From Bordetella parapertussis (lineage in GTDB: Bacteria > Pseudomonadota > Gammaproteobacteria > Burkholderiales > SG8-41), in contig CAMCYP010000010.1 of NCBI GenBank assembly GCA_945885345.1, forward strand, positions 1 through 64,000: a DNA stretch of 64,000 nucleotides, in the 5' to 3' direction. A program made the position numbers and the translations under genes. How positions within the stretch are numbered: position 1 is the stretch's first letter; each line of letters starts with the position of its first letter. Below, in pieces: positions 21,272-56,388 of this stretch. The notes beneath the pieces are model-generated. The model worked only from the letters and a program-made list of their open reading frames with translations, ran no database searches and had not been told where the DNA came from.

Positions 21272-22270
21272 ATGCGCCACACTGCCGACATGACCCACAC
21301 CGTCTCCAAATCCGACATCACCCACGCAGTAGCCCAACTCAAGGCCGGCGAACTCGTCGCATTCCCCACCGAGACGGTCTACGGCCTCGGCGCCGATGCC
21401 TCGAACGCCGATGCCGTGCGCAAAATCTACGCCGCCAAAGGCCGGCCTTCGAACCATCCGCTGATCGTGCATGTCGCCGACGCGGCACAACTCGCCAACT
21501 GGGCACGCGACATTCCGCCCTTCGCACACACACTGGCAAAAAAATTCTGGCCCGGACCGCTGACGCTGGTGCTGAAGCGCAACCCGCGCGTGCCCGATGA
21601 AGTCACCGGCGGCCAGGACACCGTCGCGATCCGCGTGCCTTCGCATCCGGTGGCGCAGGCACTGCTGCGGGAATTCGGCGGCGGTGTGGCCGCGCCCTCG
21701 GCGAATCGTTTTGGCCGTGTATCGGCAACCACGGCGGCGCATGTGCGCGAGGAATTCGGCGACAGTGTCGCCTGCGTGCTCGACGGCGGCGCAGCCGATG
21801 TCGGCATCGAATCCACCATCGTCGATTGTTCACGCGCAACACCGACACTGCTGCGCCCGGGCTGGATCACACCACAAGAACTCGAAGCCGCACTTGGCGC
21901 GCCGCTGGCCGCGCCTGACGCCGACGCACCGCGTGTATCCGGCACACTCGAAAAACATTATTCGCCGCAGACCCCGGTACTACTGATGGAAGGCGACCTG
22001 ATCGTCGAACTCGCGCACAGCATGGCGCGCCAGGGCAAACGCGTCGCGGTGCTGGCACGCACCGCGCTGCGGCCGCTGATCGACGGCATGGTGTGGTTGG
22101 CTGCGCCGGCGGATGCGGCGGGTTATGCGCATGACCTGTATGCCAATCTGCGCGAACTGGATCAGGCGGGTTGTGATGCGATTCTGGTGGAGCAGCCGCC
22201 GGAGAAGGCGGAGTGGTTTGCGATTCGGGATCGTTTGAATCGGGCGACTGCAGGGTCCGGTGAGACCTGA
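21272..22270 (+). CDS. L-threonylcarbamoyladenylate synthase (Sua5/YrdC type)
   Basis: A 332-residue two-domain Sua5-type enzyme. The YrdC domain shows GELVAFPTETVYGLGADAS, KIYAAKGRPSNHPLIVHV and the SAPSANRFGRVS-like VAAPSANRFGRVS motif. The C-terminal Sua5 domain starts after GTLEKHYSPQTPV. It forms threonylcarbamoyl-AMP for t6A37 in ANN-decoding tRNAs. In betaproteobacteria this gene commonly follows the purine genes, as here. A second in-frame ATG (21290) is possible. The AT-rich island begins right after its stop. Confidence 0.92.
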   Translation: MRHTADMTHTVSKSDITHAVAQLKAGELVAFPTETVYGLGADASNADAVRKIYAAKGRPSNHPLIVHVADAAQLANWARDIPPFAHTLAKKFWPGPLTLVLKRNPRVPDEVTGGQDTVAIRVPSHPVAQALLREFGGGVAAPSANRFGRVSATTAAHVREEFGDSVACVLDGGAADVGIESTIVDCSRATPTLLRPGWITPQELEAALGAPLAAPDADAPRVSGTLEKHYSPQTPVLLMEGDLIVELAHSMARQGKRVAVLARTALRPLIDGMVWLAAPADAAGYAHDLYANLRELDQAGCDAILVEQPPEKAEWFAIRDRLNRATAGSGET

Positions 22271-22376
22271 GTGATTGTGTGCCTTAAGGGAAGTTAAAAA
22301 AACACGAAAATCAGCAATTAACAAAACTATAAAGTTAAAAAAAGACGGTTTTAAAAAGAATAGTAAAGGGGGCGAA

Positions 22377-25300
22377 ATGTTAGTTACAGAAAATCAACTT
22401 GACGAATGGGTGCGCGGACACGCGAGAGATGCTCAAGGAGTGATCGTCGAGCTTGTTTGGCGCCTTGTGGCTGCGTCGTCTCCAAGACCTAAGGATCGTC
22501 GATTTCCTCTAGAGGACAGCATTGGTCAGCATGGACCAGATGGAATATTAGATGTGGATTTTCCATTTGATCCATTTGTGCCCGAAGGGCGCTCGTTCTG
22601 GGAAATTGGAACGGGGCTAAATGCCGGAGATAAAGCGACTTCAGATTACAACGGATTGGTTTCTGGTGTTCCCGAAAACGAACGAAAAGCGGCTACATTC
22701 ATTTTTATTACCCCACTTTCAGCGCGGAGAGATTGGGAGCACACGTGGAAAGAAGATTCCCAGGGGAAATGGCTCGCTGATCGTCGTTCTCGCAGCGATT
22801 GGAAAGATGTCAGAGTCATAGATGGAACGAAGCTAATCGACTGGGTGCATGAATTTCCACCGGTTGAGCTTTGGCTCGCTCAAAAACTGACAGGAATGCC
22901 TACAGACCAAGTTGAGACATTAGAGCAATGTTGGAACTTGGTTCGTAGCATCGGCGAGCCACCACCATTGACCCCTAAAGTTTTCTTGGCTAATCGCGAA
23001 GAGGCTCACGAGAAAATTAAGGAAGTCTTCTCTGGGAGTACGGTGCATCTAAAGCTAGAAACACATTTTCCTGACCAAGTTGTTGATTTTGTGTGCGCAT
23101 GTGTGGCTAATTTAAGTGATGAAGATCGCATTGATGTCGCGGGACGCTGCGTTGTTATTTCTGGCCCCGAGGCATGGAACGCAATGGCCGGACAAAAAGA
23201 GAAGCTGATTTTAGTTGCCGGCTCGACACTCGATCTTACAGGTGGCGCGGGGACAAAATTGATTCAAAAAGCTCGGCGAGCCGGGCATGCGGTTATTTTC
23301 GGAGGGGCGGCTGTAGGAATTCCAGATCCTGCAAGTGTGCCGCTTCGTATTCCTCGATCGCATCAACTGAAAGAGGCGCTGGAGCACGCCGGGTACAGCG
23401 AAGAGCGAGCGCGCACTTTAGCCCAGAAGAGTGGAGGGAATTTAGGTTCACTGTTGAAATGCCTTCAAAATATTTCAACGATCCCTGAGTGGGCAGAGAG
23501 TAGTGTTGCCTCGGAGTTGGTAGTGGCCGCAATTTTAGGATCATGGAATGAAAATTCGGAAGCCGATCGCTTAATTGTGGAGCGCTTATCGGGAAACTCA
23601 TACGGGGAGTGGATCGGTAAGATGCGTGAGGTTTCGCTTCGACCGGGCACTCCCCTCATTCAACGAGATGGAAATTGGAAATTCGTTACGAGATACGAGG
23701 GATGGTATGTTCTCGGCCCACAAATTTTTAATGAGCAAATCGAAAAGTTGCGAGACGCCGCGGTCTCGGTGTTGACGGAAAATGATCCTCAATTCGAACT
23801 TCCTACTAATGAGCGATATGCGGCAAGTATTCATGGAAAAGTTCTTAGTCATTCAGAGCGAATTCGGGATGGTCTAGCTGAATCCTTGGCGCTGCTTGGA
23901 AGCCATTCAAAAGCATTGACTTCATGCCAATTCGGTAAAGCCGAGATATCGGCCGCACTTGCTGTACGAGCAATATTGAAAGACGCCGATTGGCAGCGTT
24001 GGGCCAGTCTGAATGGCTTGTTGTCATTGCTTGCGGAGGCTGCACCAAGTGAATTCCTTGACGCCGTTGAAGGCGCGCTCAATAAAGAGCCATGCCCATT
24101 TGATTCAGTATTTAAACAGGAGAGTGATGGAATAACTGGTGGCACATATATAAGTGGGTTGCTTTGGGCCTTAGAAACCCTCGCATGGGATGCTACCCAC
24201 CTAAACCGTGTTGTGATTTGTTTAGGAGAGCTTTCAAATCGCGATCCTGGTGGGCGTTGGTCAAATCGGCCATCAAATTCTTTAACCACAATTCTTTTGC
24301 CATGGCTTCCGCAAACGTGCGCGCCCATTTCAAAGCGCGTTGGAGCAGTAGCGGCATTGCAGTCGGAGTTACCAGAGATTGGTTGGAAATTATTGCTAAG
24401 TCTACTTCCTCAAGCACACTCCACTTCATCAGGTACGCGTAGACCAGCTTGGCGCGAGACCATACCGGATGATTGGTCTAGAGGGGTAACAAATAATGAA
24501 TACTGGGATCAAACTCGACTTTACGCTGATATGGCAATTGTAGCGGCACAAAATAATAGAGAAAAGCTTGCTGAATTAATTGATTGTTTAGAAAACCTGC
24601 CGCCAGAGGCGAAGGACAAATTGATTGCCCATTTGTCATCTGAAAGTGTAATGGCAATGTCGGATTCGGATCGGGTAAAACTTTGGACTGAACTTGTGGA
24701 CTTAGTTACAAAACATAAAAGACATGCAGATGCTGATTGGGCGATGGGATCTAAGGAAGTTGATAAGCTGGAAGCGCTGGCCGAAAAAATAAAACCAATT
24801 GCTCCAATTTTTCGACATCAGAGATTATTTAGTGAACGAGATTTTGATTTATTCGAAGATATTGGGAACTATGATGAGCAGTCCAATGCTCTTGAAAAAT
24901 TACGACAAGAGGCCATAACTGAGATCGCAGCGAATGGCGGGACCCAGGCAATTATTTCTTTTGCTTGCCTTGTTCAGTCTCCATGGCGAGTGGGCATTTC
25001 ATTTGGAGTGGTTGCTGAGCCAGACGTTGACGAAGAAATTCTCCCCGGGTTGCTCGAGTCTAGTTCCCAACCACTTTCTCAGTTTTCGGGTGCATTTGTT
25101 GGAGGGAGGTTTCATTCTCAAGGATGGGAATGGGTAGACAATGTAAATAAAAAAAATTGGACTGAGTCACAGCTAGGAGATTTTTTTACTTTTTTACCGT
25201 TCATTCCCAGTAATTGGGAACGAGCAGAAAGTCTCCTTGGTTCTGACAAGGGAATTTACTGGCGTAAAGTCCAAGTTAATCCATATGCGACAGACATAGA

Positions 25301-26180
25301 TGTCGATTTCGCAGTTGATCGTTTGATTCAATTCGAAAGGCCGTATGCCGCATTGCGGTGTTTTACCAAAAGGCTATACGAGAAAAAGCCGCTTGGATCA
25401 GAGAGGGCGATAAGTGCTTTGCTAGCTACTCTGAAATCATCTGAAGATCCAGCGTCAATGGACCGTCACACGATAGTTGAGATAATCAAGGCGCTACAGA
25501 ACGATTCAACAGTAAATTCAGAAGATCTCTTTCGAGTCGAGTGGGCATATTTAAGGCTTTTAAATCATCACAGTCGAGTGTCTCCGCTACAGCTTTGGCG
25601 AAAACTGGCAACAGATCCAAAATTCTTCTGTGAAGCAATTAGGCTCGTTTTTCGTTCAAAAAAAGAAGAGTCTCCAAAGGAAATTATTCCTGAGGAAAGA
25701 AAAAGTGTGGCGGCCAATGCTTATACGCTTCTAAGTCAGTGGCGTTATCCCCCTGGTACCCTACAAGATGGGTCATATGACGGATTAGCTTTTGATTCTT
25801 GGCTTGATGCGGTTAAAAACGAATGTAAAGAGTCTGGCCATTTAGAGATTGCAATGTCTATGCTGGGGCACGTATTAATTTATTCTCCCCCTGATAAAGA
25901 TGGATTGTGGATTCATCGGAGTGTCGCTGCTGCACTGAACGCTAAAGACTCTAGCGATATGCGTAATGGTTTCCGAACAGAGTTGTTTAATTCAAGGGGA
26001 GTTCATTGGGTGGATCCATCTGGTAAGCCAGAGCGAGAACTTGCAAGTAAATATCGCGCGCGCGCTGAAACTATTGAAGCTGTTGGATACCATCGTTTAG
26101 CAACAACTTTACGGGATTTGGCGGATTCTTATGATCGTGATGCTGAGAGAGTATTATCGAGGGAGCACTTTGATGGGTGA
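22377..26180 (+). CDS. Large AT-rich protein of unknown function; possible nuclease-like N-terminus and degenerate ATPase-like region
   Basis: A 1267-residue protein that I cannot name. The N-terminal 175 residues contain GPDG (53-56), WEIGTG (75-80), K86, FIFITP (108-113) and WKDVRVIDGTKLIDWV. This order resembles PD-(D/E)xK-type nuclease domains fused to large proteins, though a clean ExK is missing. Residues about 205-400 look like a STAND/AAA ATPase without a P-loop: KLILVAG as a Walker B-like strand and KSGGNLGSLLKCL like the GxP helix. The rest is probably helical repeat, ending in ERELASKYRARAETIE and LRDLADSYDRDAERV. GGGGG five bases before the ATG at 22377 sets the start. Composition is far AT-richer than the neighbours. 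A defence role is inference only. Confidence 0.8.
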   Translation: MLVTENQLDEWVRGHARDAQGVIVELVWRLVAASSPRPKDRRFPLEDSIGQHGPDGILDVDFPFDPFVPEGRSFWEIGTGLNAGDKATSDYNGLVSGVPENERKAATFIFITPLSARRDWEHTWKEDSQGKWLADRRSRSDWKDVRVIDGTKLIDWVHEFPPVELWLAQKLTGMPTDQVETLEQCWNLVRSIGEPPPLTPKVFLANREEAHEKIKEVFSGSTVHLKLETHFPDQVVDFVCACVANLSDEDRIDVAGRCVVISGPEAWNAMAGQKEKLILVAGSTLDLTGGAGTKLIQKARRAGHAVIFGGAAVGIPDPASVPLRIPRSHQLKEALEHAGYSEERARTLAQKSGGNLGSLLKCLQNISTIPEWAESSVASELVVAAILGSWNENSEADRLIVERLSGNSYGEWIGKMREVSLRPGTPLIQRDGNWKFVTRYEGWYVLGPQIFNEQIEKLRDAAVSVLTENDPQFELPTNERYAASIHGKVLSHSERIRDGLAESLALLGSHSKALTSCQFGKAEISAALAVRAILKDADWQRWASLNGLLSLLAEAAPSEFLDAVEGALNKEPCPFDSVFKQESDGITGGTYISGLLWALETLAWDATHLNRVVICLGELSNRDPGGRWSNRPSNSLTTILLPWLPQTCAPISKRVGAVAALQSELPEIGWKLLLSLLPQAHSTSSGTRRPAWRETIPDDWSRGVTNNEYWDQTRLYADMAIVAAQNNREKLAELIDCLENLPPEAKDKLIAHLSSESVMAMSDSDRVKLWTELVDLVTKHKRHADADWAMGSKEVDKLEALAEKIKPIAPIFRHQRLFSERDFDLFEDIGNYDEQSNALEKLRQEAITEIAANGGTQAIISFACLVQSPWRVGISFGVVAEPDVDEEILPGLLESSSQPLSQFSGAFVGGRFHSQGWEWVDNVNKKNWTESQLGDFFTFLPFIPSNWERAESLLGSDKGIYWRKVQVNPYATDIDVDFAVDRLIQFERPYAALRCFTKRLYEKKPLGSERAISALLATLKSSEDPASMDRHTIVEIIKALQNDSTVNSEDLFRVEWAYLRLLNHHSRVSPLQLWRKLATDPKFFCEAIRLVFRSKKEESPKEIIPEERKSVAANAYTLLSQWRYPPGTLQDGSYDGLAFDSWLDAVKNECKESGHLEIAMSMLGHVLIYSPPDKDGLWIHRSVAAALNAKDSSDMRNGFRTELFNSRGVHWVDPSGKPERELASKYRARAETIEAVGYHRLATTLRDLADSYDRDAERVLSREHFDG

Positions 26181-27132
26181 TTTGTTTTTGTTACGTGCAG
26201 TTACTGTTTGTGCATTCCTAGTCGCACCGCTTACTCAAGCGCAAACATATCCCACCAAACCCATCCGCATCATCTCCCCCTACACCGCCGGCGGCCTCGG
26301 CGACCTGGTGCCGCGTGCCATAGGAGCAGGGCTGACCGAAGCCCTGGGCCAGCAGATCCTCGTTGAAAACCGCCCCGGCGCATCGCAGGCCATCGGCATG
26401 CAGCTCGTTGCCAAATCGCCCGCCGATGGTTACACGCTGGTCTACGGCAGCGTGACCAGCCTGACGATCAATCCGGCGGTGAACAAGAATCTGCCCTACG
26501 ACCCGGTCAAGGATTTCGCGCCGCTGTCCTTGTGTGTGACCACGCCCTTGTTTCTGGTGGTGCATCCCTCGGTGCCGGCGAAGAATGTGAAGGAACTGAT
26601 CGCGCTGGCGAAACGTCAGCCCGGCAAACTCACCTTTGCATCGGGTGGCAACGGCTCATCGAATCATCTGGCCGGCGAATTGCTCAAACTGCTGGCGGGT
26701 ATCGACCTGCTGCATGTGCCGTACAAGGGCGCGGGTCCGGCGATGATTGATGTGATGGCGGGGCACGTGGACATGATGCTCGGTGCGGCGGGTCTCGCCG
26801 AAGCACACGCGGGTCGGGTGAAGGTGCTGGGCGTGACCAGTCCCAAACGTGCGGCTGCTGCGCCGGATCTGCCGACGCTCGCTGAAGCGGGTGTGAAGGG
26901 TTATGAATCGACGATCTGGTTTGGCCTGCTGGCGCCGGCTGGTACGCCGCAACCGATTGTGAACCGACTGTCGCAGGAGATCGGCAAGGTGCTGCAGCAA
27001 AAAACCATGCGTGAGCGTTTTAATACCGTGGAGCTGACGCCGACTACGCCGGAGGGATTTGCTGCGCATATCCAGCGCGAGATTCCGAAGTGGCGGAAGG
27101 TGGTTACTGAAGCGAAGATTTCGGCGCTTTGA
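26173..27132 (+). CDS. Bug/TctC-family periplasmic solute receptor (4)
   Basis: A 319-residue receptor: signal peptide MGDLFLLRAVTVCAFLVAPLTQA, then QTYPTKPIRIISPYTAGGLGD, VENRPGASQAIG and LPYDPVKDFAPLS. The ATG lies within the last codons of the large AT-rich gene (8-base overlap). The signal-peptide codons are AT-rich like that gene, whereas from about base 26250 the composition turns to the GC-rich style of the genome. The mature part is normal Bug sequence with the HVPYKGAGPA loop. Ligand unknown; the nicC-like gene follows. Confidence 0.9.
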   Translation: MGDLFLLRAVTVCAFLVAPLTQAQTYPTKPIRIISPYTAGGLGDLVPRAIGAGLTEALGQQILVENRPGASQAIGMQLVAKSPADGYTLVYGSVTSLTINPAVNKNLPYDPVKDFAPLSLCVTTPLFLVVHPSVPAKNVKELIALAKRQPGKLTFASGGNGSSNHLAGELLKLLAGIDLLHVPYKGAGPAMIDVMAGHVDMMLGAAGLAEAHAGRVKVLGVTSPKRAAAAPDLPTLAEAGVKGYESTIWFGLLAPAGTPQPIVNRLSQEIGKVLQQKTMRERFNTVELTPTTPEGFAAHIQREIPKWRKVVTEAKISAL

Positions 27133-54887: not shown

Positions 54888-55547
54888 TCAGAAATTCTTG
54901 CGATAGCCGATGAAAACGCCTCCGAAGGGCACTAAGATAATGCTTTGATTGCGCTGATGCATCAGGTAACCCGTGCCGGCACCAAGCAACGCGCCAGCGA
55001 TCACATCCGATTGCCAGTGTGCCCGGACTTTCATACGAGCCTCGGCATCGTAAATAAGCGTTGCAGCCGCTACTCCGACCAAAGCCGGATTTTCGCGACC
55101 GTATTCCAATACAAACGGTGTAAATATGGCCGCAACGTTTGCCACCTCGCCGCTGGGAAAGCTGCGATGGCCGGTACCTTGAAAAAATTTTGCTGCATCA
55201 GGCGTTTCTGTAGGGCGCTCACGTGAAAAGGCTATCTTGCCGGCCTGTGCCAGCGTAGCGGTGATCAACATTGAATCAAGCGATTGCCATGCCGTGCGCC
55301 CGAGGCGACTTTCGCTGCCTTCGTAAATCGCCAGTGAGCCAACTCCTGCGACAAGGGCGTACTGCAACCCCATCTGAGTACTACGCTTGTAGATTCCGTC
55401 GTATTTTGGGGAAAGGCGATGATCAATTTCGAACGGACCGTTGTTATCGTTGGCGCGAACGACCGTCGTACTGCCCAATAGTAATAAAACAAGAGAAAAC
55501 TGAAAACAGTGGAGGATAAAATAAGGCCGACATGGTCCAATCCACAT
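54888..55547 (-). CDS. PAP2-family phosphatase, variant active site
   Basis: About 219 residues with a signal-anchor (FSLVLLLLGSTTVVRA). PAP2 motifs: KIAFSRERP (motif 1), HRSFPSGEVAN (motif 2) and ARMKVRAHWQSDVIAGALLG (motif 3). The PSGH histidine is glutamate here, while the motif 3 histidine and aspartate are kept. Such proteins dephosphorylate lipid or polyprenyl phosphates; activity with the changed motif is uncertain. I use the ATG at 55547 with AGGGG upstream; a TTG two codons earlier is possible. The gene and its flank are lower in GC than the surroundings. Confidence 0.85.
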   Translation of the reverse strand: MWIGPCRPYFILHCFQFSLVLLLLGSTTVVRANDNNGPFEIDHRLSPKYDGIYKRSTQMGLQYALVAGVGSLAIYEGSESRLGRTAWQSLDSMLITATLAQAGKIAFSRERPTETPDAAKFFQGTGHRSFPSGEVANVAAIFTPFVLEYGRENPALVGVAAATLIYDAEARMKVRAHWQSDVIAGALLGAGTGYLMHQRNQSIILVPFGGVFIGYRKNF

Positions 55548-55592
55548 GCGCAATACCCCTCGACCTGACTACGTCAAAACGGTTAATGACTC

Positions 55593-55619
55593 GTCATAGT
55601 TTCAGCGCACTGGTGTCAA
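55593..55619 (-). promoter_or_regulatory. Possible promoter of the PAP2 gene
   Basis: On the minus strand TTGACA (55619-55614) is followed after 15 bases by TATGAC (55598-55593). The spacing is short and the -10 weak, so this is tentative. Confidence 0.3.
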
Positions 55620-55939
55620 TAATTTGTTAATACGATGTGAAAGATATGTGCATTTGGCCGTTTGAAAACCGCTACTTAATTGCTGTCCCGGCAGGCTATT
55701 TTCGCGCCAAATTCTATGAGGGAAAACCCGCCCCGCTTTGGGTCGAAGGTCGTTATGCAATACCCGCTTGTTTACGCGCTGAAAACATAGGGAGCATGTA
55801 TGAATCTCAGCGAGCGTTGGCGTGTATTGGCTAGCGAGGGTGGGCAACGTTCGCTATTAAACGACTACTTACTTCAACTTTTAATCCGTTGCTTGCAAGT
55901 TCAAATTCCGCACCACTTGCCAATTCGAAACAAGGAGCT

Positions 55940-55961
55940 AGCCTAAAAGAGGCTCTTTTTT
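55940..55961 (+). terminator. Terminator-like hairpin
   Basis: AGCCT, loop AAAAG, AGGCT, then C and six T residues. It reads as a plus-strand intrinsic terminator although no plus-strand gene precedes it for over 1 kb; it may mark a lost gene. Confidence 0.5.
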
Positions 55962-55974
55962 GCGTTGGAATCCC

Positions 55975-56388
55975 TCAGGACTTCGCTTTCTTCGATGATT
56001 TCGACTTGCCAGCACTATTGAGCGCAATCGCCTGAAGAATGAGTGCCTTGAAGGCAGACTCGTCGACTTCCTCTCCTTCGTGGATGTCGATTGCGCGGCG
56101 TACTTTTCCGTCGAGACTCGAGTTGAAAAGGTGCGCCGGATCTTTCAGGGACGCGCCCCTGGCGAAGGTCAGCTTCACCACATTCTTGTAGGATTCACCG
56201 GTGCAGATGATGCCGTCGTGCGACCAGACCGGTGTGCCCATCCATTTCCACTCCTCGACGACGTCCGGATCCGCTTTCTTGATGAGCCGGCGCATTCTGT
56301 CGAGGGTTTTTCCGCGCCAGTCGCTGAGACTGGCGATTTTTTTCGAGATCAGCGTTGATGCCGACTGGCTCGTGACCGGTTTTTTCAT
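55975..56388 (-). CDS. DUF1801 domain-containing protein
   Basis: A 137-residue YdhG-type protein. WRGKTLDRMRRLIKKADPDVVEEWKWMGTPVWSHDG is the DUF1801 core (about 24-60), followed by CTGESYKNVVKLTFARGASL and the C-terminal FNSSLDGKVRRAIDIHEGE. A Lys/Ser-rich tail (SAGKSKSSKKAKS) ends it. The family has an SRPBCC-unrelated small alpha/beta fold, and its role is unknown. It follows the second enolase-superfamily gene at a distance of 24 bases. Confidence 0.86.
   Translation of the reverse strand: MKKPVTSQSASTLISKKIASLSDWRGKTLDRMRRLIKKADPDVVEEWKWMGTPVWSHDGIICTGESYKNVVKLTFARGASLKDPAHLFNSSLDGKVRRAIDIHEGEEVDESAFKALILQAIALNSAGKSKSSKKAKS

Follow-up and report, generated by a model that had tools for sequence, protein, structure and literature searches.

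A distant, P-loop-less relative of PD-lambda-4 A as a candidate single-protein anti-phage nuclease in a Bordetella parapertussis contig

The first 64,000 nucleotides of contig CAMCYP010000010.1 (the window), from the Bordetella parapertussis assembly GCA_945885345.1, hold a large gene of foreign composition among apparently core-metabolic neighbours, which raises the question of what its product does and why it lies there. The gene is intact and has 1267 codons (22377..26180 with the stop; this and all other gene features below are on the plus strand unless stated). The product is probably a single-protein anti-phage sensor-nuclease with a nuclease-hub-solenoid plan, and a distant relative of PD-lambda-4 A that has no P-loop. 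The initial annotation, made from sequence alone, had already suggested an anti-phage effector; profile homology to PD-lambda-4 A, the exchange of heads among relatives and a mobile, patchy distribution now support this suggestion, and from them we infer a role in defence. An in-frame TTG at 22275 opens the reading frame. Because the ATG at 22377 is preceded by AAAGGGGG (22365..22372, 4 bases 5' of the ATG), a putative ribosome-binding site, and because the closest relatives begin at this same residue, 22377-26180 are the correct gene limits.

As the initial annotation had indicated, the protein falls outside the families that can be named, with no usable sequence model in Pfam, NCBIfam, PADLOC or the PDB. 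PADLOC (2023) and NCBIfam returned no family at E <= 1 for the full protein, PADLOC returned none for residues 200-1267 either, and no Avs model was among its matches. Pfam gave a single sub-threshold DUF2452 row, and the PDB searched by sequence gave no match. When three alignments were run as profiles against the PDB, the best E-values were 0.012, 0.02 and 0.36, which were judged to be chance. A BFVD fold search gave no row at E <= 1e-3; its rows were mostly AAA or clamp-loader proteins, with an endodeoxyribonuclease I at rank 13 (E 0.027).

AlphaFold models (predicted local distance difference test scores of 88 and 86) gave a PD-(D/E)xK-like domain, an AAA+/STAND-like hub and a HEAT-like solenoid. 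These correspond to the nuclease-like N-terminus, the ATPase-like core without a P-loop and the long helical remainder that had been read from the sequence, and the motifs named at that stage are all present (GPDG at residues 53-56, WEIGTG at 75-80, K86, FIFITP at 108-113, KLILVAG and KSGGNLGSLLKCL). The predicted nuclease domain (residues 1-171; 22377..22889) has, in the model, the PD-(D/E)xK core fold, with its acidic residues in order and a lysine. Conservation was read in 34 relatives with the same head (type A), a set that includes a few near-identical pairs and that was obtained from 60 family open reading frames (ORFs) by removing 13 of types B and C (described below), L007, which begins at residue 129, and a further 12 that were partial or were copies or fragments of the window gene. 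The first putative catalytic acid, D55 (codon 22539..22541), is aspartate in 34/34 rows; the second, E76 (22602..22604), is glutamate in 33/34, with glutamine in L078. Both K86 and D90 (codons K86-D90, 22632..22646) are kept in all 34. The putative catalytic lysine, K86, lies on a helix (83-97 in the model) and not on the third strand.

The central domain (residues 187-366; 22935..23474) has a degenerate AAA+/STAND-like fold in the model. A strand-loop-helix (residues 224-244; 23046..23108) occupies the Walker A place, with the loop THFP and no GxxxxGK. The pattern GxxxxGK[ST] was found neither in the window protein nor in the hub of any of the 34 type A rows; among all 60 family ORFs, counting fragments and near-copies, it occurs once, at residue 69 of L092, in the nuclease domain and not the hub. 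In a 19-row alignment, near-invariant columns made up 22 of the 124 scored in the nuclease domain (residues 39-171) and 4 of the 170 scored in the hub. An intact active site next to a drifting hub is the pattern expected of a dead nucleoside triphosphatase (NTPase), and the hub is probably such a relic. The remainder (residues 367-1267; 23475..26177) is the HEAT-like helical solenoid, which is kept when the head is exchanged and is the proposed sensor.

Homology to a known defence system emerged at the level of profiles. When family alignment A7, covering about residue 200 onwards, was compared with PADLOC, the sole family met was PD-Lambda-4_A (PDLC03991; 4 of 27 members, best E 7.6e-7), and the full-length relative L017 meets the same family at 9.5e-5. 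The PD-Lambda-4_A model itself found 8 of the 398 genomes searched. Alignment by hhalign of the family (A9) with four PD-lambda-4 A sequences (A8) gave a probability of 98.9 and an E-value of 1.5e-17; the 1052 aligned columns show 15% identity and span profile positions 28-1192, so that head, hub and solenoid are colinear with PD-lambda-4 A. Type B proteins, which are without the window-type head and hub, aligned with PD-lambda-4 A over 131 columns (E 1.8e-6). PD-lambda systems were obtained by functional selection in E. coli, and each cloned system cut plating of the phage used to select it (PMC9519451). PD-lambda-4 is not named in the main text of that paper; a table row in PMC10952713 attributes it to Vassallo et al. 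2022 and lists a P-loop NTPase. PD-lambda-4 A shares with the family a nuclease-like DGGID..QxK head, a central NTPase and a long helical C-terminus. However, its GxxGxGKT P-loop is kept in 4/4 proteins read and its QxK lysine lies on a strand, whereas the window protein has no P-loop. Because the PADLOC model and the P-loop both fail, the window family is classed as a P-loop-less cousin of PD-lambda-4 A and not as a member.

From Avs4 (8dgf) and the Avs/STAND group the window protein differs by its lack of a P-loop, by the absence of a PADLOC Avs match and by its HEAT-like C-terminus, where that group presumably has TPR repeats. Literature searches on STAND proteins in type I restriction-modification (R-M) loci, on Avs4 and on P-loop-less STAND proteins gave no recognition of the family among the matches listed, which does not prove its absence from print.

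The exchange of heads on a constant solenoid argues for a sensor-effector reading and is taken as its strongest independent support, head exchange on a constant arm being typical of immune sensors. The solenoid, from about residue 369, is common to the type B proteins of 1176-1187 residues (hhalign E 8e-201 over 891 columns), whose head has no match to the window head and carries conserved FE, TDD and QxK motifs. In type C proteins (924-932 residues) the head is gone, and a short N-terminal stretch carries GTGHNVAG or a variant of it. A gene of 106 residues lies upstream of type C genes; the Buttiauxella copy matches GapS6a (NF047935, E 4.7e-41) and HetE-N (PF20701, E 1.5e-40), and the E. coli copy is annotated gapS6a. 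In these two hosts a window-type solenoid stands as a separate protein right after gapS6a, which is the likeness to the GapS6a/GapS6b system (NF047935, NF047936); the window protein, in contrast, has a fused nuclease and no GapS6a. The solenoid was considered as a GapS6b homologue and this was rejected (hhalign probability 0.1, A7 against one GapS6b sequence); neither the window protein nor the type C proteins matched the GapS6b model. A large solenoid protein that is not GapS6b follows a GapS6a/HetE-N gene at L018 (7573-10667) and L095 (7681-10799), so GapS6a seems not to be tied to a single kind of partner. Literature searches on GAPS6 and GapS6a gave nothing relevant among the matches listed. 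By near-identical DNA, 7 of 5426 E. coli genomes carry the type C gene of L088; for the type B gene of L083 the count is 8, with 7 full. One type C copy from E. coli was examined; it is flanked by an Ogr-like gene and a late control D gene, in what looks like a P2-like prophage. The remote type A relatives L015, L016, L017, L090 and L094 have an N-terminal helix-turn-helix (HTH)/HigA-like domain fused to the nuclease (by family match in L015 and L017, by eye in the other three), which suggests self-regulation.

Relatives with 41-66% identity over the whole length occur in records of unrelated groups and, together with the invariant active-site columns, place the family beyond chance. Twelve genome loci were found (46-67% best-segment identity; several in metagenome-assembled genomes), in records named Burkholderiaceae, Synechococcus, Deltaproteobacteria, Nitrospira, Contendobacter, Pseudomonas, Polaromonas, Alphaproteobacteria, Neomarinimicrobiota, Betaproteobacteria and Clostridiales. 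L001 has 66% identity to the window protein over its full length. Near the host the gene is rare, with a match in 2 of 21 genomes of the genus (its own and G016, at 58% identity), 3 of 74 of the family and 12 of 398 across the phylum, a count that takes in its own genome and a weak match in G149. In G016 the gene is on contig C231 and the upstream flank of the window's site on contig C184. Among 72,556 plasmid records 22 match, 11 of them typed conjugative, and relaxing the limit added none. In viral sequences, 14 loci came from one scan and 17 from another, on partly shared contigs; a phage collection contributed a single unannotated record of 6.6 kb, with 24% identity over 53%. The distribution is that of a mobile accessory gene. 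A survey of the relatives' neighbourhoods, which the initial annotation had put forward as a check, found Hsd genes at 6 of the 12 genome loci and other defence-type genes (AbiE, Abi-family, SIR2, SieB, RES/Xre) in 3 of 6 plasmids inspected.

In the most likely mechanism for a sensor-nuclease, the solenoid (about 367-1267) would bind a phage-made or phage-altered structure, or would be kept inactive by a partner, for example a type I R-M complex. Binding would rearrange or multimerise the molecule through the AAA+/STAND-like hub, which would act as a structural joint and no longer as an ATP switch. The PD-(D/E)xK-like domain would then cut DNA, halting the phage or the infected cell. Nuclease activity, a phage trigger, the ligand of the solenoid and the lack of ATP use are each proposals.

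The alternative that survives best, though it is rather doubtful, is that the protein serves type I R-M as an accessory or guard, kept quiet by the R-M complex and fired when a phage inhibits that complex. PrrC offers the precedent, residing in a type IC locus and firing upon inhibition of the R-M enzyme (PMC12707154). HsdM, HsdS and HsdR-like ORFs stand with the gene at L001, L003, L008, L010, L011 and L012, and at L001, L010 and L012 the gene lies between hsdS and hsdR. HsdM is partial in L011 and HsdR in L008, the HsdR of L010 is split over two ORFs, and Pfam confirms the R-M genes tested in L001, L003 and L011. Further Hsd-like ORFs occur at L139 (an HsdR piece) and L147 (HsdM and HsdS). 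In 150 genomes of the phylum about 175 HsdM_N matches were summed by hand, or about 1 per 3.3 Mb on the assumption of about 3.8 Mb per genome (43 of the 150 sizes are not listed), so that HsdM_N is expected by chance within 10 kb at about 0.6% of loci. For 6 of 10 loci (L004 and L007, with little or no flank, were dropped from the 12) the binomial probability is about 1e-11, a rough figure, since the loci and the sampled genomes belong to different taxa and defence genes tend to cluster in any case. The likeness to PrrC and other type I R-M guards consists in this hsd-locus position at 6 of the 12 genome loci. PrrC is an anticodon nuclease with an ABC-type ATPase; in contrast, the window protein has a predicted DNase-type fold and no ABC-type ATPase. 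Unrelated defence genes also gather in R-M loci, and since no Hsd gene is within reach of the window copy or at the plasmid and viral loci fetched, R-M is not needed family-wide. The window's own genome (G000) has two neighbouring HsdM_N matches at 10978-13555 of contig C52, a contig other than that of the gene.

It is unlikely that the hub still binds nucleotide, or joins an active ATPase in a mixed ring in the manner of inactive clamp-loader subunits. Many of the best fold matches of the hub are clamp-loader subunits, some of which are known to be inactive, but the hub columns drift, and no constant ATPase neighbour was seen by eye. It is quite unlikely, too, that the protein serves mobile elements as a maintenance or addiction factor and has no anti-phage role. 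The plasmid records, one of which (L014) has ParAB adjoining, and the autoregulation suggested by the HTH/HigA-like fusions would fit such a factor. However, chromosomal, R-M-locus and prophage copies exist too, the family is homologous to PD-lambda-4 A, and no small antitoxin-like partner was seen by eye beside the window gene. A recently inserted, decaying passenger without present function would suit the AT-rich, not yet ameliorated composition, but is very unlikely in view of 1267 uninterrupted codons, the retention of all proposed active-site residues and the full-length identity to L001.

The foreign look of the gene, remarked on in the initial annotation, was borne out by measurement: the GC content is 0.464 and that of third codon positions (GC3) 0.378, declining along the gene to 0.336 in the last third, against 0.600-0.653 and 0.697-0.776 in the 7 flanking genes measured. 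The description of the gene as a lone one also holds for the window, where the adjoining ORFs appear core-metabolic by eye, without family search, and no ORF is Hsd-like. Directly upstream lie two 16-base direct repeats (22291-22306 and 22332-22347; 94% alike, 41 bases apart), possibly an operator; a promoter scan gave two overlapping minus-strand matches and nothing else. The left edge of the variable site is a core gene at 21272..22270, which we take to be Sua5/TsaC-like and which has a match in 18 of 21 genus genomes, its own included. The right edge is a gene of uncertain start at 26173..27132 that overlaps the end of the coding sequence and is presumably of TctC/Bug type; its family is present in 21/21 genus genomes with many paralogues. 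Matches to this family number 14-30 per genus genome, with at least 25 in 20 of the 21 and 14 in G026. No insertion-bracketing direct repeat of at least 12 bases was found, there is no tRNA in the window, and no integrase was recognised by eye among the neighbouring ORFs. A second dip in GC content (0.495 in 55001-56000) covers an ORF of 221 residues (54888-55553, minus strand), which by its look may be a PAP2-type phosphatase.

Seventeen relatives have a match to the upstream flank, and 13 sister genomes fetched from among them were counted (G026 was fetched but is distant and uncounted; G017, G022 and G023 are outside the 13). In 5 of the 13, lower-GC cargo (0.37-0.57), mostly of defence type, directly follows the upstream gene. 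That of G024 comprises an unassigned protein of 234 residues, a caspase (PF00656), ThsB_TIR (PF08937) and an unassigned protein of 195 residues; that of G014 a 234-residue gene resembling the one in G024, protein kinases and PP2C; that of G013 a 247-residue gene without family and shorter ORFs; that of G015 a ThiF-type protein with multiubiquitin, alongside further genes; and that of G018 a C5 DNA methylase. Cargo coordinates in sister species are 1146-4256 in L064, 1122-5282 in L066, 6485-11105 in L070 and 1253-2380 in L071, and a 234-residue gene without family is common to L064 and L066. These five genomes and the window together suggest that the gene sits in a recurrent defence-cargo site.

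Several observations count against the sensor-nuclease reading or limit it. The remaining 8 of the 13 sister genomes (G012, G020, G010, G028, G027, G029, G025 and G016) lack low-GC cargo immediately behind the upstream flank, and two cargo proteins of L064 and the one tested from L065 went without a Pfam or PADLOC match at E <= 0.01. The type B head appears nuclease-like as judged by its motifs alone. The remote HTH-fused relatives L015 and L017, at full length, also meet HTH-type PADLOC rows, and none of the plasmid or viral loci fetched contains Hsd genes.

The window protein escapes the defence model library searched (PADLOC 2023), and its family is an unnamed, widespread but rare group of one-protein defence candidates, of the nuclease-STAND-solenoid kind with no ATP-binding loop in any type A member read. 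A wider proposal is put forward tentatively, as possible but not probable: a STAND-type family wholly without an ATP switch, in which one HEAT-like sensor serves killer modules that can be swapped (nucleases of two types, or GapS6a/HetE-N as a separate gene), with a dead AAA+ hub in the nuclease form, and which in many bacteria acts as a guard in type I restriction loci. The constancy of the sensor beneath exchangeable heads gives a handle on what is sensed, and a P-loop-less family set against the P-loop-bearing PD-lambda-4 A would make the need for ATP in such an architecture directly testable. The textbook view of STAND immune proteins is one of ATP-driven switches; if the proposal is true, NLR/Avs-like immunity can work without nucleotide exchange.

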